Assembly: GCA_963169745.1 (NCBI GenBank)
Contig: CAUJCU010000013.1
Location: 62,001 to 126,000, forward strand
Length of the DNA: 64,000 bases
Direction: 5' to 3'
Source: Bacteroidota bacterium
GTDB taxonomy: Bacteria; Bacteroidota; Bacteroidia; UBA4408
Shown: positions 17,087 through 25,540 of the stretch, piece after piece
How the letters are laid out: each line of letters opens with the position of its first letter
How positions within the stretch are numbered: position 1 is the stretch's first letter
Made by a program: the position numbers and the translations under genes
The notes under the pieces: generated by a model
What the model was told of the DNA's origin: nothing
Seen by the model: only the letters and a program-made list of their open reading frames with translations
Databases searched by the model: none

Positions 17087-17094
17087 TACTTTTG
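17087..17094 (+). promoter_or_regulatory. Bacteroidota -7 element before the cobalamin riboswitch
   Basis: TACTTTTG is an exact TAnnTTTG match, placed so that transcription would begin at about 17099, immediately before the conserved riboswitch core. This makes a self-contained promoter-riboswitch-gene unit starting just after mqnC. Confidence 0.6.
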
Positions 17095-17103
17095 CTACAT
17101 CAA

Positions 17104-17257
17104 TAGGTTTTGCATTGTACAAATTAAAAGGGAATCTTGTGTAAATCAAGAACAGTTCCCGCTGCTGTAAGTCTATATCTGGTGTAAGCCAGAAGCTATG
17201 CCATATTGCCACTGTTTTGTTCGGGAAGGCAGCATAGTTAGACAAGTCAGAAGACCT
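17104..17257 (+). ncRNA. Cobalamin (B12) riboswitch aptamer
   Basis: The conserved adenosylcobalamin riboswitch landmarks occur in order: AGGT (17104-17107) able to pair with ACCT (17254-17257) as P1; AAAGGGAA; GTTCCCGCTGCTGTAA; GCCAGAAG; the B12 box GCCACTG (17208-17214); GGGAAGGC; and CAGAAGACCTGCC. The remaining 100 bases to the btuB ATG would be the expression platform, containing an imperfect hairpin (ATGCTTT with AAAGGCAT). Binding of B12 should lower expression of the three genes downstream. This is a strong call on family motifs; gene context agrees. Confidence 0.95.
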
Positions 17258-17360
17258 GCCTTTTGATGCTTTAGAAATGCTTTCGGTGAAAAAGGCATGA
17301 AGTTTATCTGCATTGATTGTAAACTCCTTGTTTGTTTTGCCTTTAATGTTATCACGATAA

Positions 17361-19277
17361 ATGAAATATTGGTTCTTAATGTTTTTTCTTATTCATATCG
17401 ACATAGTCTCTCAGGCTCAAAACGATAGTGTTCATACACTTAAAGAGGTAGAAATTCAGGCTGAGTCGCGTTTAAATTTAAAAAAACAAGGTTTGAAAAC
17501 AGAAGTACTCGATTCGGTTTATCTTTCACAAAGTATTTCTAACTCATTGGCTGATCAACTGAGTCGTTTAAGTTCCATTTATATAAAAAGTTATGGAGGA
17601 GGAAGTTTAGCTAGTTCCTCGTTTAGAGGTGGAAGTGCTGCTCAAACTGCAATAGTGTGGAACGGGTTTAATTTGCAAAGTCCGGTAAACGGAATGATTG
17701 ACTTATCATTAATTCCTTCTGGATTATTTAATCAAATTCGAGTTCAATATGGGGCGCAGAGTGCTGCGTGGGGAAGCGGTGCTGTTGGTGGCACTATTTA
17801 TTTGCAAAATAAGGCTCGTTTTAATCAAGGCAATAGTTTTACAATATATACAGGAATAGGCAGTTTTGGTGAAAGAAATGTACTTCTGTCCTTTACTCAA
17901 AGTAAAGCAAATTACGTAGGCATTACAAAAGTAATGGCGGGGTCATCTCGAAATAATTATACCTTTAAAAAGGAAGAAAATGACAGCACTTATCTGGTTA
18001 AACAAAGTCATGCTGCTGTAAAAGGAATAAGTGTAACACAAGATAACTTTGTTCGATTAAAACATCGTCAATTTCTTGAAAGTCACTTGTGGATACAAGG
18101 TAATAAACGCCAAATACCTCCTACCCTTTTCCAAACCAGTAACAGTTCAGAGCAAGATGATAATGCACTTAGAGCCGGAGTACAGTATAAAAAGTATTTT
18201 AACCTGTTAAATTTTAATCTTAAGTCAGGTTTTTTTAAGGAAAACCTTTCCTATCAGGACTGGGAATTAAAACAACCTGAAAAGAGTTCTTTTTACAGCT
18301 TGGTTAATGAATTATTACTTAGCAAAGCATGGAATCGGGTGCATGTTGATGTAGGAGTAAATTCTACTTTATCCTATGCACATAGTCAACAATTTATTGG
18401 AGTTCCTAAACAGAATAAAAAGTCATTATTTACTTTACTCAGTCATCAAAACGATAAAAAAAATTTAAGTTCTATCGTTACAATTCGGCAAGAATGGGTA
18501 GATGGGACACAAAATCCCTTGGTTTGGTCTGCCGGTGTTCACTATACCCCATTTATGTGGTTTGCTATAAAAGCTAATGCCGCAAGGGTTTACCGCAACC
18601 CAACTCTTAACGATTTATACTGGAAAGAGGGAGGAAACCCCAATTTAAAACCTGAAGACGGCTATGCTTATGAAGCAGGAATGGTTATTAAGTGGTCATC
18701 ACAAAAAAAGCAAATAGAATTAAGTACGGAGCTTAATGTTTTCAGCCGAAAAGTAAATAACTGGATATTGTGGCTCCCTAATGGTGCTTTATGGAGTCCG
18801 GTTAATCTCATGAAAGTATGGAGTAGAGGGACTGAGAGTAGTACAAATTTTATGATTAGCCTACACAAAATAAAATTAACAGGAAATATTAAAACAAGCT
18901 ATGTTTTATCTGAAAACACTATAACATTATACAATAATGATGCTTCACTAAACAAACAACTTATATATGTACCTTTATATAGCGGACAGTTTAATTGGGG
19001 GCTTAATATTAAAGATGTAAGCTTATGGTTCAACCATACCTACGTTGGCTACCGCTATACGAGCAGTGATCATAGCACCTACTTAACTCCTTATTTCCTA
19101 CACAACTTCCATGTCTCATATACTATAAAATCTAAACGTTTTGATGTGGCTATTCAGGCAGGGGCTAACAATTTACTTCAAACAAATTATCAGGCTGTAG
19201 CAGGAAGACCCATGCCTGGTATAAATTTTAATACCGGATTACTCTTTAAATTCAAAAACCAAAATGAAAAGAAATAA
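17361..19277 (+). CDS. btuB: TonB-dependent outer membrane cobalamin receptor
   Basis: A 638-residue outer membrane receptor: signal peptide ending in SQAQ, a TonB-box-like LKEVEIQAES near residue 28, a plug domain (residues about 50-155, with SSFRGGSAAQTAIVWNGFNLQSP), then a long beta barrel with the family segment NPTLNDLYWKEGGNPNLKPEDGYAYEAG and a terminal strand INFNTGLLFKFKN. It imports cobalamin-type ligands with TonB energy. The B12 riboswitch directly upstream supports the substrate. Its last 14 bases overlap the next gene, indicating a tight operon with the thiamine-binding-family protein and the BtuG-like lipoprotein. Confidence 0.9.
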   Translation: MKYWFLMFFLIHIDIVSQAQNDSVHTLKEVEIQAESRLNLKKQGLKTEVLDSVYLSQSISNSLADQLSRLSSIYIKSYGGGSLASSSFRGGSAAQTAIVWNGFNLQSPVNGMIDLSLIPSGLFNQIRVQYGAQSAAWGSGAVGGTIYLQNKARFNQGNSFTIYTGIGSFGERNVLLSFTQSKANYVGITKVMAGSSRNNYTFKKEENDSTYLVKQSHAAVKGISVTQDNFVRLKHRQFLESHLWIQGNKRQIPPTLFQTSNSSEQDDNALRAGVQYKKYFNLLNFNLKSGFFKENLSYQDWELKQPEKSSFYSLVNELLLSKAWNRVHVDVGVNSTLSYAHSQQFIGVPKQNKKSLFTLLSHQNDKKNLSSIVTIRQEWVDGTQNPLVWSAGVHYTPFMWFAIKANAARVYRNPTLNDLYWKEGGNPNLKPEDGYAYEAGMVIKWSSQKKQIELSTELNVFSRKVNNWILWLPNGALWSPVNLMKVWSRGTESSTNFMISLHKIKLTGNIKTSYVLSENTITLYNNDASLNKQLIYVPLYSGQFNWGLNIKDVSLWFNHTYVGYRYTSSDHSTYLTPYFLHNFHVSYTIKSKRFDVAIQAGANNLLQTNYQAVAGRPMPGINFNTGLLFKFKNQNEKK

Positions 19278-19563
19278 ACTAAATGCTGCCATTCAACTAT
19301 TACCACTCGGAGCCACTCAAAATAAATATGCCGAAGTGGACAAGGCCATATCTGTAATTCAAGATTCGGGACTTAGATATATGGTGTGTCCTTTTGAAAC
19401 CGTTGTAGAAGGAACTTTTGAAGAAATTTTTAAGTTACTGGAGGCTATAAAATCAAAAACCTTAAATCAAGACAATGAAGAAATCATTATTAATGTGAAA
19501 CTACACTGTCATTTACACAAAGATTTATTTATTGACGATAAATTAAGTAACTATCAGCCATGA
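19264..19563 (+). CDS. Thiamine-binding (YkoF/MTH1187) family protein in the B12 operon
   Basis: A 99-residue ferredoxin-like protein of the thiamine-binding domain family: AAIQLLPLGA, KYAEVDKAISVIQDSGLRYMV, then ETVVEGTFEEIFKLLEAI, which is the usual strand-helix pattern with a conserved Thr/Glu pair. It has no signal peptide and should be cytosolic. It overlaps btuB by 14 bases and the lipoprotein gene by the ATGA tetranucleotide, so all three are translated together. Why a thiamine-type binder accompanies B12 uptake is not known; it may bind a corrinoid or a lower-ligand precursor, which is inference. Confidence 0.8.
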   Translation: MKRNKLNAAIQLLPLGATQNKYAEVDKAISVIQDSGLRYMVCPFETVVEGTFEEIFKLLEAIKSKTLNQDNEEIIINVKLHCHLHKDLFIDDKLSNYQP

Positions 19564-20621
19564 AAAATCTATTTTCAAATAGTATGATAAAAATCCATCA
19601 GCTAGTTCTAATAGGAACATTGTTTTGCTTATGCTCATGCCGCTCAGACAAGCCTGAAGATGCTATAAAACCCAATATATCTCTTAACAATGCCCATGGC
19701 CTATATGTGTTAAATGAAGGGAATTTTCAGTTTGGAAATGCCTCGGTTACTTATTATAATTTAGACAATGGTAGTTTGGTTGAAGATATCTATAAAATGG
19801 CAAACGGAAATAATTTAGGAGATGTAGCCCAAAGTATGACTTTGATTAACGGGTGGTACTATTTAGTTGTCAATAATTCACAGAAGATAGAGGTTATAAA
19901 TCCTGAAAATTTTTTGCAAATAAATCGAATTAGCTCCTTACTTTCTCCCCGATATATACTTCAGGTAAGTAAATCAAAAGCTTATATCAGTGATTTTAAG
20001 AGCAACCGAATAAGCATAATCAATTTAAACAGCAACAGTAAACAAGGAGAAATTATTATACATGGATGGACCGAGGAAATGCACTTGATGTATGGAAAAG
20101 CATATATAACAAACATGTCGAATGATAAATTATATATTGTAAATACTGCCAATGATATGTTGGAAGATAGTTTAACTCTAGCTCAAAGCCCCGGTAGTTT
20201 AACCGAAGATAAGAATGGAAAACTATGGGTGCTTTGTCAGGGCGATGCACCAACGAGCAAAACAGGTGCTTTATTTTGTATAAATCCTGAAAATAAAGTA
20301 ATAGAAAAAAGAATGGATTTTAGCTCTTCAGATGCTCCAATGCGGCTTTGTATCAATGAGAGTTTGGATACTTTATATTTTATCAATAAGCATTTATTTC
20401 AAGTACCTATTGAAGCTACTTCACTACCTCAAAACCCATTGATAGACGGCAATTCAAAAAATTTTTATGGCCTTGCTATACAGCCTAAAACGGGAAATAT
20501 TTTTATAAGTGATGCATTGGATTACATTCAAAAGGGGACGATTTTTGTATATAATTCAAAAGGAGCCTTGTTAAAAGAGTTTAAAAGTGGTTTAATTCCA
20601 TCAAAAATTTATTTTAAATAA
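19560..20621 (+). CDS. BtuG-like surface lipoprotein, beta-propeller
   Basis: A 353-residue exported lipoprotein with lipobox LCSC at about residues 24-27, followed by a YncE/DUF5074-like beta-propeller. The segment GLYVLNEGNFQFGNASVTYYNLDNG and repeated blades (KIEVINPENFLQINRI, NRISIINLNSNSKQGEI, KLYIVNTANDMLEDSL) show this. In Bacteroides, BtuG is a propeller lipoprotein that captures B12 at the surface and docks on BtuB; the same role is inferred from fold and from being third in a B12-riboswitch operon behind btuB. Its ATG overlaps the preceding stop by four bases. Confidence 0.82.
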   Translation: MKNLFSNSMIKIHQLVLIGTLFCLCSCRSDKPEDAIKPNISLNNAHGLYVLNEGNFQFGNASVTYYNLDNGSLVEDIYKMANGNNLGDVAQSMTLINGWYYLVVNNSQKIEVINPENFLQINRISSLLSPRYILQVSKSKAYISDFKSNRISIINLNSNSKQGEIIIHGWTEEMHLMYGKAYITNMSNDKLYIVNTANDMLEDSLTLAQSPGSLTEDKNGKLWVLCQGDAPTSKTGALFCINPENKVIEKRMDFSSSDAPMRLCINESLDTLYFINKHLFQVPIEATSLPQNPLIDGNSKNFYGLAIQPKTGNIFISDALDYIQKGTIFVYNSKGALLKEFKSGLIPSKIYFK

Positions 20622-20639: not shown

Positions 20640-21020
20640 ATGAGATTCTTGCTGTCTTTCTTTTTGTCTATTCAAATTATCAGCAACAGTACATTTTTGG
20701 AAGATGTGTTACGTATTCCATTATTAGTTGAACATTACAAGCATCATACCCAAACTGAAAACCCCAATTTATCATTTTTAGGTTTTATTAAAATGCATTA
20801 TCTTAATGGTTCAGACCATCAAGACATTAATCATTCTTCATTACCACTACATCACTCCCATGATGTAGGTCATATTCATGTAAGCTCTATATATACTTTA
20901 CCTGAAGAAATAAATATTTTTTTAAAAATTTCACTAATCTCAGAGCAGCATAGTACTTATACTAGCTTTATCCCAGATCGAAATACAGAACGTATTTTTC
21001 AACCCCCAAAAATCTGTTGA
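20640..21020 (+). CDS. Small His-rich exported protein preceding the CzcA efflux genes
   Basis: A 126-residue protein with a hydrophobic N-terminus (MRFLLSFFLSIQIISNS) and a histidine-rich middle: EHYKHHTQ, MHYLNGSDHQDINHSSLPLHHSHDVGHIHV. Such His clusters commonly bind divalent metal ions. Proteins of this look frequently precede heavy-metal RND operons in Bacteroidota, which fits the CzcA gene 168 bases downstream. It has no named domain that I recognise. It also directly follows the B12 operon but appears to have its own promoter. Confidence 0.7.
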   Translation: MRFLLSFFLSIQIISNSTFLEDVLRIPLLVEHYKHHTQTENPNLSFLGFIKMHYLNGSDHQDINHSSLPLHHSHDVGHIHVSSIYTLPEEINIFLKISLISEQHSTYTSFIPDRNTERIFQPPKIC

Positions 21021-21187: not shown

Positions 21188-24100
21188 ATGCTGAATAATA
21201 TTATCCATTTTTCCATTAAAAATAAATTTATAGTGGGTTTATTTGTACTCACATTAATTTTTTATGGCTCATATCAAGCAACAAAACTTCCCATTGATGC
21301 TGTTCCTGACATTACCAACAACCAGGTTCAGGTAATTGCCATTGCTCCATCATTAGGAGCCTTAGACATTGAACGTTTGGTTACATTTCCAATTGAATTA
21401 GCTAATAGTAATATTCCTGGCTTGCATGAAATACGTAGCTTTTCAAGATTTGGGCTTTCTGTTGTAACAATAGTATTTGACGATGATAAAGATATTTATT
21501 GGGCACGACAACAAGTAAATGAACGAATACAGAAAATAACCGAAACAGTTCCAAAAAGTATGGCTGACATTTCTTTAGGTCCAATAACTACCGGGCTTGG
21601 GGAAATTTACCAATATACTTTACGTGCCGCTCCGGGTTATGAAAAAAAGTATGATATTACGCAATTAAGAACCATACAAGACTGGATCGTTAGGCGACAA
21701 CTGTTAGGTGTTAAAGGAGTAGCAGAAGTAAATAGCTTTGGAGGAAAACTTAAACAATTTGAAATTGCAATTGAACCCAATAAATTAAAATCATATAATA
21801 TTACGATAGAAGATGTATTTAAGGCTCTTGAAAATAACAATCAGAACACCGGTGGGGCTTATATTGAAAAGGGACCTACCGCACTCTATATTCGAAGCGA
21901 AGGATTAATTGGCAATTTAGATGATATTCGCTCTATATTTATTAAAAGTAATAGCAATGGCACCCCTTTATTATTAGGTGATGTAGCCACAGTTGCCATT
22001 GGATATGCCACACGATATGGTGCATTATGTTATAATGATGAAGGTGAAGTTACAGGTGGTGTGGTAATGATGCTCAAGGGCGAAAACGGGAACACCGTAG
22101 TTCAAAATATTAAAGAAAGGATTGAGCACATTAAAAAAACCTTACCCCAAGGCCTTATTTTAGAGCCTTTCTTGGATAGATCAAAACTAGTTTCAAATTC
22201 AATCCATACTGTTACAAAAAACTTGATGGAGGGAGCCTTGATAGTTTTGTTTGTGTTAATAGTTTTCTTAGGAAACTTTCGAGCGGGTTTCTTAGTAGCT
22301 TCTGTTATTCCACTTTCAATGCTGGTGGCCATTATATTGATGAACTTATTTGGAGTAAGTGGTAATTTAATGAGTTTGGGAGCTCTTGATTTTGGGCTGA
22401 TTATAGATGGGGCCGTAATTATAGTAGAAGCAGTGCTACATAGCCTTCATGCCCAAAAGTTTAAAATCAATACCGGTATTTTCAAAAAAACTGAAATTGA
22501 AGATCAAGTATATTCATCAGCAAGTAAAATGTTGAATAGTGCTGTATTTGGTCAGTTAATTATTCTAGTTGTTTACCTCCCAATTTTCTTTCTTGAAGGT
22601 ATTGAAGGTAAAATGTTTAGACCAATGGTTCAAACTATAGTTTTTGCACTTATAGGAGCATTTATACTTTCACTTACCTATATTCCAATGATGAGTGCCT
22701 TAATCATGAGTAAGAAAATGACTTTCAAAAAGAGTTTTTCCGATACGCTCATGTCTTTCTTAGAAAAATATTATCAACTAATTTTACTCAATGTATTGAA
22801 AATTCCCAAGTTAATACTGGGGATCGTACTATTGCTCTTTCTTATTTCAATAACCCTACTTTCTAAAATGGGAGGTGAATTTATTCCTACCTTAGAGGAA
22901 GGTGATTTTGCTTTGGAAATAAGAGTACTTCCCGGGAGCAACCTAAACACTACAATAGAACGTACTCAAAAAATTGCACATATTTTATTGACACGCTTTC
23001 CGGAGGTTACCCAAGTAGTAACCAAAATTGGAAGTGGTGAAGTACCCAATGATCCCATGCCTATGGAACTGGCCGATATGATGGTTATTTTGAAAGATAA
23101 AAAAGACTGGAGTTCTGCTCATTCATTTACTGAACTATCTGATAAAATGGGTAAAGAATTAGAAGAAGTACCCGGTATTTCCATAAGCTTTCAGTATCCC
23201 ATCCAAATGCGGTTTAATGAACTAATGACCGGAGCCAAACAAGAAATTGTGTGTAAAATTTTTGGCGATAATTTAGATACGCTTTCAAAATATGCACAAC
23301 AACTAGGCCATATTTCGCGTGGTATTGAAGGAGCGCAAAGTGTTTTTGTTGAAACTGTTAATGGATTGCCAGAGGTTTTGATACATTATAACAGAGGTGC
23401 TATAGCTCAATATGGGTTAAATATTCATGATATAAATAAAATTGTAAACACTGCTTTAGCTGGCCAAAGTGCCGGACTTGTTTATCAAAGCGAGCAACAT
23501 TTTGATTTAGTAGTACGTTTAAAAAGTAGCTTAAGAACGGGTTTAGAAAGTGTAAGTCAGCTCTTAATTAACACCCCAAGTGGCGATCAAATACCCTTAA
23601 ATCAATTAGCACGTGTTGAAATAAAAGCCGGCCCCTATCAAATTCAGCGTGAAAATGCCCAAAGGCGTATTATAGTTGGCTTTAATTCTAAAGGACGTGA
23701 TATCGAAAGTATTGTAAATGAGTTACAGAAAAAAACAGAATCGCAAATTAAACTACCTAGTGGTTACTACATTACTTATGGCGGAACTTTTGAAAATCTT
23801 AATAAAGCCAAAAAGCGCTTAGGCATTACAGTTCCGGTTTCATTATTCTTAATTTTTTTACTTTTATATTTTGCATTTGGCAGCGTCAAACAAAGTTTAC
23901 TTATATATACAGCCATTCCACTCTCTATTATTGGGGGTATTATAGGTCTTTCGCTCCGAGGATTTTCATTCAGTATATCGGCCGGAATAGGATTTATTGC
24001 TTTATTTGGTGTAGCAGTGCTTAACGGGATTGTACTGATTGCAGAATTTAACCGTTTAAAGCAAAATGGTATAAACCAACCCGAGGATATTGTTATTAAA

Positions 24101-25540
24101 GGAGGTATCATGCGCCTACGCCCAATTTTAATGACTGCTACGGTAGCATCGTTAGGTTTTTTACCTATGGCCTTAAGCACAGGTATTGGATCAGAGTTAC
24201 AGCGGCCATTAGCAACAGTTGTTATTAGCGGATTATTGATAGCTACCTTGCTTACTCTTTTTGTTTTACCTATATTATATATCATTTTTGAAAAATGGAA
24301 ATTCAATAAGACAATAAGGAACACACTAGTAATTGGGGTTCCACTATTTATTCATTTTATGCCAATGCCTGCTAAGGCTCAAGACGTTTTAAATTTAAAA
24401 GCTTCGCTTGATACAGCCATTCAAAATAATCTTTTTCTAAAAAAAGAAAAATTAAATAGTGATTATTATAAAAAGCTAAAAGGCAGCGCCTGGCAGCTCG
24501 ATGAAACAACTGTTTCTGCCGAGTATGGGCAGTTTAACAGTATCTATAATGATACAAAGTTATCGGTGAGTCAAAGCTTAAAATTTCCTAATGTTTATAT
24601 CAAGCAAAAAGATGTGTTGAAAGGCGAATGGGAAAAGTCAAACTATGATTATGAACTTAAAAAAAGACTTTTAATAAAAGAAGTATCATTAACATATTAC
24701 CACTTAGAGTATTTAAAATCATTAAAAAGAATGTTGTTGAATACCGATAGCTTATTTGCTTTTTATGAACAGAAAGCCGTATTGAAGTATGAGAAGGGTG
24801 AAAGCAATGTTTTAGAAAAAAATACTGCCATGTGGCAGCGAACACAAATAAACATACAGCTCAGGGCAATTGAAAATGATTATGAAAAAGAACTTCTTGA
24901 TTTTAATTTACTCCTGAACTCTAAAAAGTGGTACGAGCCCGACAGTCTTAGTTTTAAAGCAGTTTCTTCTATAGAGATTAAACCCAACATGAACGAAAAT
25001 CACCCATTACTCTCGGCACTAAAACAAGAGCAAATAAACAGTAAAAAACGGCTTGAGTTAGAGAAATCACTGTTATTACCTTCTCTTTTTGCAGGGTACA
25101 ACACCATGAGTATTATGGGAAATGGACCTGATAATGTATTTTACAACAAGAGCCATCGGTTTCAAAGTATTCAAGCCGGAATTGGAGTTCCCTTGTTCTT
25201 CAATGCTCAAAAAAGTAGAATAAGTGCTCAAAGAGTTCAAGTTCTAATAGCCGATAATATATACCAGTCTGCCTTTTCTTCCCTTCAAAATGAATATAAA
25301 AAAGCCTTAAAGAATTACGACCATAGTTTAATACAAGTACAACGCTTTGAAGAAGAATCAAATCCTATGGCAGAAGAGATGCTACAAGCCGCACAACTTC
25401 AGTTTGAAGCAGGAAGTATAAATTACTTAGAGTGGATGATGCTTCACAATCAAATAATTGACATTAAAACAGATTACCTTAAAGCAGTAAACAATTTAAA
25501 CAACAGCATTATTGAAATTAACTATTTTAACAGTAAATAA
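21188..25540 (+). CDS. czcA: CzcA-type heavy-metal RND pump fused to a CzcC/TolC-like outer membrane domain
   Basis: A 1450-residue fusion. Residues 1 to about 1045 are a heavy-metal RND pump, with IEFNRL and IPLSIIGGIIGLSL segments and the TM4 relay motif DFGLIIDGAVIIVE near residue 401, typical of the CzcA (Co/Zn/Cd/Ni) class rather than CusA. About residue 1047-1065 is a second signal-peptide-like segment (VIGVPLFIHFMPMPAKAQ). The rest is a TolC-type alpha-barrel with long coiled-coil helices and FEAGSINYLEWMMLHNQI near the end. Fusions of this kind are common in Bacteroidota. The adaptor gene starts one base after its stop. It expels divalent metals across both membranes. Confidence 0.93.
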   Translation: MLNNIIHFSIKNKFIVGLFVLTLIFYGSYQATKLPIDAVPDITNNQVQVIAIAPSLGALDIERLVTFPIELANSNIPGLHEIRSFSRFGLSVVTIVFDDDKDIYWARQQVNERIQKITETVPKSMADISLGPITTGLGEIYQYTLRAAPGYEKKYDITQLRTIQDWIVRRQLLGVKGVAEVNSFGGKLKQFEIAIEPNKLKSYNITIEDVFKALENNNQNTGGAYIEKGPTALYIRSEGLIGNLDDIRSIFIKSNSNGTPLLLGDVATVAIGYATRYGALCYNDEGEVTGGVVMMLKGENGNTVVQNIKERIEHIKKTLPQGLILEPFLDRSKLVSNSIHTVTKNLMEGALIVLFVLIVFLGNFRAGFLVASVIPLSMLVAIILMNLFGVSGNLMSLGALDFGLIIDGAVIIVEAVLHSLHAQKFKINTGIFKKTEIEDQVYSSASKMLNSAVFGQLIILVVYLPIFFLEGIEGKMFRPMVQTIVFALIGAFILSLTYIPMMSALIMSKKMTFKKSFSDTLMSFLEKYYQLILLNVLKIPKLILGIVLLLFLISITLLSKMGGEFIPTLEEGDFALEIRVLPGSNLNTTIERTQKIAHILLTRFPEVTQVVTKIGSGEVPNDPMPMELADMMVILKDKKDWSSAHSFTELSDKMGKELEEVPGISISFQYPIQMRFNELMTGAKQEIVCKIFGDNLDTLSKYAQQLGHISRGIEGAQSVFVETVNGLPEVLIHYNRGAIAQYGLNIHDINKIVNTALAGQSAGLVYQSEQHFDLVVRLKSSLRTGLESVSQLLINTPSGDQIPLNQLARVEIKAGPYQIQRENAQRRIIVGFNSKGRDIESIVNELQKKTESQIKLPSGYYITYGGTFENLNKAKKRLGITVPVSLFLIFLLLYFAFGSVKQSLLIYTAIPLSIIGGIIGLSLRGFSFSISAGIGFIALFGVAVLNGIVLIAEFNRLKQNGINQPEDIVIKGGIMRLRPILMTATVASLGFLPMALSTGIGSELQRPLATVVISGLLIATLLTLFVLPILYIIFEKWKFNKTIRNTLVIGVPLFIHFMPMPAKAQDVLNLKASLDTAIQNNLFLKKEKLNSDYYKKLKGSAWQLDETTVSAEYGQFNSIYNDTKLSVSQSLKFPNVYIKQKDVLKGEWEKSNYDYELKKRLLIKEVSLTYYHLEYLKSLKRMLLNTDSLFAFYEQKAVLKYEKGESNVLEKNTAMWQRTQINIQLRAIENDYEKELLDFNLLLNSKKWYEPDSLSFKAVSSIEIKPNMNENHPLLSALKQEQINSKKRLELEKSLLLPSLFAGYNTMSIMGNGPDNVFYNKSHRFQSIQAGIGVPLFFNAQKSRISAQRVQVLIADNIYQSAFSSLQNEYKKALKNYDHSLIQVQRFEEESNPMAEEMLQAAQLQFEAGSINYLEWMMLHNQIIDIKTDYLKAVNNLNNSIIEINYFNSK

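Follow-up and report, generated by a model that had tools for sequence, protein, structure and literature searches.

Why should a gene for a small, probably cytosolic protein of the MTH1187/YkoF type stand between the two surface genes of a vitamin B12 uptake operon? This question is raised by positions 17,087 to 20,621 of a stretch of 64,000 nucleotides (contig CAUJCU010000013.1, positions 62,001 to 126,000; hereafter the window) from an uncultured genus of Bacteroidia, whose order is sampled by eight genomes only. The open reading frames of the window and profile searches revealed three genes on the same strand behind one cobalamin riboswitch, namely btuB, a PF01910 gene of 99 amino acids (aa; hereafter the small gene), and btuG (Table 1). 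Their coordinates, and the overlaps of exactly 14 bases between btuB and the small gene and of four bases (ATGA) between the small gene and btuG, agreed fully with an initial annotation made from the sequence alone. Altogether, this is a normal riboswitch-controlled B12 uptake operon of an uncultured Bacteroidota lineage, plus a conserved lineage-specific passenger; the small gene is its novelty, but a narrow one. The reading we favour, giving it about an even chance, is that of a cytosolic binder of a thiamin- or pyrimidine-type compound that was moved under B12 control.

Table 1. Features of the B12 operon and its leader (positions in the window)
Feature	Position	Strand	Description	Basis
-7 promoter box TACTTTTG (TAnnTTTG, Bacteroidota-type)	17087-17094	+		Sequence; kept in relatives
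Cobalamin riboswitch aptamer RF00174	17088-17277	+	Model positions 1-189 (full length)	93.8 bits, E 4.8e-22
TTCGG-containing block after the aptamer	17276-17299	+	Can form a short stem-loop	Conserved in five leaders
btuB	17361-19277	+	TonB-dependent outer-membrane cobamide transporter, 638 aa	PF00593 and PF07715; PDB BtuB chains
Small PF01910 (MTH1187/YkoF-type, "thiamine-binding") gene	19264-19563	+	99 aa	Pfam, AlphaFold, Foldseek
His81-Cys82 codons	19504-19509	+	Cys82 private to the five B12-operon copies
btuG	19560-20621	+	Beta-propeller protein, putative lipoprotein, 353 aa	PF16819 (DUF5074); PDB BtuG chains

The surface proteins and the small protein

Both surface proteins were assigned with the help of solved structures. 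BtuB revealed plug and barrel domains in the Pfam search (PF07715 and PF00593), and its PDB matches at E ≤ 1e-10 were four Bacteroides BtuB chains only (8bmx_C, 8p97_A, 8p98_A, and 8blw_A). Since its best NCBIfam match, TIGR01779, reached 76.4 bits and stayed under the equivalog cut-off of 599.7, we named it a Bacteroidota-type BtuB and not a TIGR01779 equivalog. BtuG aligned over residues 39-350 to solved BtuG chains (8bmx_D, 3dsm, and others) with E-values of about 1e-59, and a lipobox and an acidic stretch were identified by eye in the region CSC-RSDKPED. Among the pocket residues reported for BtuG2 (PMC10404256), Tyr316 and Tyr335 are kept in the alignment, and Trp194 and Trp272 are exchanged for Met and Ala, respectively. 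With both proteins matching solved Bacteroides chains, the initial view of BtuB and the propeller lipoprotein as the surface B12 capture pair known from Bacteroides was supported. Judged by homology, surface B12 uptake would explain btuB and btuG, which lie in one operon with the small gene in between.

The product of the small gene matched PF01910 with 62.3 bits (cut-off 24.9), and a structure prediction, as suggested by the initial annotation, gave an AlphaFold model with a predicted local distance difference test (pLDDT) score of 91.8. Foldseek matches of this model were 1yqh, 2ibo, 2eky, 1vk8, and 1lxn, and it superposes on TM0486, MJ1052, and MTH1187; the protein is thus predicted to have the ferredoxin-like MTH1187 fold. 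Family score and fold bear out the assignment to the YkoF/MTH1187 family, though the protein stays under the cut-off of TIGR00106, the MTH1187 family thiamine-binding protein (39.6 against 54.7 bits). Family-wide invariant residues are kept, namely Q11, P14, D26, P43-F44-E45-T46-V47, E49, and K93. Cys82, behind a common His81, was found in all five operon copies, including that of genome G006 with 32% identity, as opposed to none of a further 114 family members in the comparison. It sits just beyond strand 74-81 of the model and, by strand alternation, probably points to the V78/L80 side, towards the helices, so that it need not touch a ligand. No N-terminal signal sequence was seen in the small protein, and a cytosolic location is probable from its sequence. 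The point made in the initial annotation, that B12 uptake alone fails to account for such a protein between the two surface proteins, is upheld.

Conservation in the order and distribution across Bacteroidota

Five of the eight genomes of the window's order carry the small gene inside the B12 operon. The unit of riboswitch, btuB, small gene, and btuG recurs in three further genomes of the genus, and G006, from another genus of the same family, displays the order riboswitch, btuB, DUF4465, small gene, and btuG. Locus L011 has unrelated flanking genes (the one that follows is glycyl-tRNA-synthetase-like, by inspection of the translation), yet all four parts are intact; since they persist despite the changed flanks, we regard them as the unit. 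PF01910 was absent from G004 and G005, the latter having btuB-btuG without the small gene, and the small-protein query gave no match in G007, which is 71% complete. The small gene is the only PF01910 copy in its genome. Its ratio of nonsynonymous to synonymous substitution rates (dN/dS) was 0.075 for G001 against G003, comparable to btuB, and about 0.08-0.29 between genus members, with high dS making these values rough. Kept under purifying selection, in two operon layouts and as the sole genomic copy, the small gene shows signs of being functional there, and the Cys82 signature of the operon copies is a further such sign.

Phylogenetic analysis placed the five operon copies in one clade with a support of 84 in one tree, and they were split in a larger tree with distant rows. 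When alignment columns 80-83 were left out, the free search set G006 apart, but the tree uniting the copies had the higher likelihood (p-AU, from the approximately unbiased test, of 0.82). The G006 copy formed a long branch in all trees, and a single origin of the five copies is compatible with them.

Outside this order, the picture is different. A DNA scan of 84,980 species genomes revealed 80 relatives of the small gene with 39-61% identity, and only three of them, all from the same genus, lie at btuB/btuG, with the reservation that some contigs are short and a distant btuB could escape. Other relatives sit behind unrelated genes, namely a pyrE-like phosphoribosyltransferase together with a small gene without Pfam match, an unknown 246-aa gene, or DUF3276. 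At 27 loci, a 132-aa-type gene without Pfam match stands before the PF01910 gene, often itself preceded by the pyrE-like gene, and at 36 loci this place is taken by the unknown 246-aa-type gene; these two contexts (L013, L018-L020, L023, and related loci) may hold a clue to the role of PF01910 in Bacteroidota. Among 396 Bacteroidia genomes, PF01910 was present in 60 and BtuG-like proteins in 268, and the shared operon occurred only in the window's family, the arrangement thus being a lineage-specific recruitment. None of 26 btuG loci outside this family had an adjoining PF01910 gene; in its place, 21 of them carry a gene with matches to secreted proteins of the DUF4465 type known from B12 loci. 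A general conservation of the small gene between btuB and btuG homologues, which the initial annotation had proposed to survey, was accordingly rejected: across Bacteroidota, as opposed to the window's order, it is found mainly away from B12 loci, an outcome that the initial annotation had itself named as speaking against its reading, none of 20 PF01910 loci examined lay in a btuB-btuG operon, and those class-survey genomes with both positions listed place PF01910 elsewhere. Two f12 cases considered as an independent association (G447 and G572) were also discarded, as their PF01910 gene stands outside the riboswitch unit, paired with a DUF218 gene.

Weighing the role of the small protein

The metabolic setting was analyzed on the thiamin and the cobamide side. 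ThiC, and with it the standard thiamin-pyrimidine enzyme, is absent from all eight genomes of the order and present in 13 of 14 control genomes. Each of the eight also revealed a match to the thiamin pyrophosphate (TPP) riboswitch, two of them under the gathering score. Taken together, the lineage likely depends on outside thiamin or its pyrimidine, as far as these searches tell. The only TPP riboswitch of the window's genome (L180:4926-7458, G000:C10) precedes a TonB-dependent receptor, without a thiamin biosynthesis gene beside it. CobT and CobS are likewise absent from all eight genomes, while the same searches found them in 7 and 10 of the 14 controls, respectively, and B12-binding enzyme domains are present in all eight. 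Based on this combination, these organisms appear to import complete cobamides and lack the known route for attaching lower ligands; they appear dependent on outside sources of both B12 and thiamin.

Under the reading we favour, low cellular B12 would lead to expression of the operon, whereupon BtuG would capture cobamide at the surface and BtuB would import it in a TonB-driven manner, as is established for these families and transferred to this case by homology. In this one order, an ancestor would have brought its sole PF01910 gene under the B12 operon's control by relocating it there, and the small protein would still bind a thiamin- or pyrimidine-type metabolite, buffering or signalling it, with its synthesis thereby tied to B12 scarcity. 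Support comes from the riboswitch with its three genes, from the recurrence of the unit and the purifying selection on the small gene, from the kept invariant residues, from the fold shared with the thiamin binders TM0486 and YkoF, and from the absence of ThiC together with a TPP riboswitch match in each genome. The cytosolic location, the ligand class, and the link between B12 and thiamin are inferred. Several points weigh against this reading. A thiamin binder would more naturally be found under the TPP riboswitch, which here precedes the TonB receptor, and neither a pattern search nor Rfam revealed a TPP riboswitch beside the small gene or its examined relatives, so that the neighbourhood gives thiamin no independent support in Bacteroidota. 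Finally, control of thiamin binding by B12 scarcity comes without an explanation.

The small gene might instead have kept an ancestral housekeeping role and simply ended up in an operon that suited it, without its control by B12 having any meaning for B12. We consider this possible, though doubtful. It fits with the same family standing behind unrelated genes elsewhere in Bacteroidota, with the low share of Bacteroidia genomes that have PF01910, which makes the family dispensable in most, and with the single genomic copy, which argues for relocation and not for duplication towards a new task. On the other hand, the unit outlasted both the change of flanks in L011 and the change of operon content in G006, its copies share the private residue Cys82, and a housekeeping gene in this place would be silenced each time B12 is abundant.

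It is this private cysteine, together with the small gene being locked between the import genes of a B12-riboswitch operon in two genera, that speaks for a switch to corrinoid handling, i.e., a cytosolic chaperone, processing, or B12-status protein meeting the imported cobamide, possibly via His81/Cys82; its role, not its ancestry, would be comparable to that of animal CblC/CblD. That these genomes encode B12-dependent enzymes without being able to remodel cobamides is also in line with this idea. We nevertheless hold it to be unlikely, since the family pocket residues are unchanged, Cys82 lies past its strand and probably faces the helices, and the signature, with four of its five copies closely related, amounts to at most two independent observations. 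Moreover, no PF01910 (MTH1187/YkoF) family member is known to bind corrinoids. The narrower version, in which an MTH1187/YkoF member marked by His81-Cys82 became a cytosolic corrinoid-handling or B12-status protein behind BtuB-BtuG in one uncultured Bacteroidia order, is a shade less probable still. A free lower-ligand base (such as dimethylbenzimidazole or alpha-ribazole), bound for the repair or remodelling of cobamides and already named as a candidate ligand in the initial annotation, would be similar in size to the thiamin ring systems and its binder co-regulated with cobamide uptake; as CobT and CobS are absent throughout the order, leaving no known machinery for a free base, we regard it as very improbable.

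Leader, neighbouring genes, and known systems

The covariance model proposed for checking the cobalamin riboswitch gave a strong match (Table 1; gathering threshold 31.5 bits), which was the sole Rfam match across the window, and btuB is also preceded by a cobalamin riboswitch in L010, L011, L012, and G006. The promoter claim held only in part: the -7 box is kept in relatives, four of which carry TACCTTTG or TACCTTCG at its position, but the -33/-7 pattern search found no -33 TTTG partner at the usual spacing. A sigma-70-type promoter was dismissed, the scan result being no better than chance. The TTCGG block is a weak candidate for a part of the expression platform, and the thermodynamic fold of the leader was no better than that of shuffled sequences. 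The operon had also been described as self-contained, which is not fully the case, as no gene for an inner-membrane B12 transporter lies within the operon and the genome harbors a second cobalamin riboswitch elsewhere. This one (L145:5090-6456, G000:C3:30089-31455) precedes a DUF4465 (BtuJ-type) protein that stands alone and has a C-terminal tail for Por secretion, and the same DUF4465 type occurs near a cobalamin riboswitch in the relatives L146 and L150. In G004 (G004:C3:95314-96894, L144:7314-8895), a cobalamin riboswitch of 118.5 bits lies just upstream of a gene whose 432-aa product carries a Por tail and resembles BtuG only weakly (33% over about 50 aa); this protein may be secreted and stand in for the BtuG lipoprotein.

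Upstream, the operon is flanked by mqnC; downstream of btuG follow a gene for a small His-rich protein and a fused efflux gene of the resistance-nodulation-division (RND) and outer-membrane efflux protein types. The His-rich protein (20640-21020; 126 aa) begins 18 bases past btuG, matches no Pfam or NCBIfam family, and has a -7-like box, TACCTTTG, directly 5' of its gene. It is kept in L010 and L012, where it precedes a heavy-metal-type RND gene, and is absent after btuG in L011, so that it probably belongs to the efflux operon rather than to the B12 unit. The efflux gene (21188-25540) is a single frame of 1450 aa combining an AcrB-type RND pump (PF00873) with an outer-membrane efflux domain (PF02321), a fusion also found in L010.

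Compared with known proteins, the small protein shares fold (template-modelling score, TM-score, 0.84-0.89) and sequence homology with TM0486 of Thermotoga maritima (1vk8), though with 25% identity in the fold alignment, and only the small gene here belongs to a cobalamin-riboswitch operon. YkoF of Bacillus subtilis (1s99; 1sbr with thiamin) shares the ferredoxin-like half (TM-score 0.68 by query length; 17% identity) but is a tandem duplication that works in hydroxymethylpyrimidine/thiamin salvage. Both are described as thiamin binders (Dermoun 2010, Devedjiev 2004). The closest solved relatives, SP2199 of S. pneumoniae (2ibo), which has the PFETV motif in common with the small protein, and a DUF77 protein of B. 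cereus (1yqh), show about 30-33% identity in the fold alignment and have no listing more specific than hypothetical protein or domain of unknown function. DUF4465 proteins, known B12 binders (BtuJ; PMC13398666), stand under the second riboswitch of the same genome and inside the operon in G006; here they have a Por secretion tail, whereas BtuJ of Bacteroides thetaiotaomicron is described as a lipoprotein.

The B12 loci of B. thetaiotaomicron (PMC10404256, PMC6143338, and PMC12751083) share with our operon the cobalamin riboswitch, the close neighbourhood or adjacency of btuB and btuG, and the BtuG propeller protein, here a putative lipoprotein. A thiamin-binding protein is unmentioned in the papers searched on these loci, and our literature search found none combining a cobalamin riboswitch with thiamine-binding. 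The operon also offers a defined, testable case for the ligand of PF01910 proteins in Bacteroidota, which are poorly characterised. The additions known from B12 loci of Bacteroidota are further surface binders (BtuH, BtuJ, and BtuK), and the known accessories of B. thetaiotaomicron (BtuH, BtuJ, BtuK, and BtuFCD) are surface or envelope proteins; in contrast, a conserved accessory that is encoded between btuB and btuG and is probably cytosolic would suggest either a step following import that has gone unstudied or a coupling of thiamin economy to B12 scarcity.

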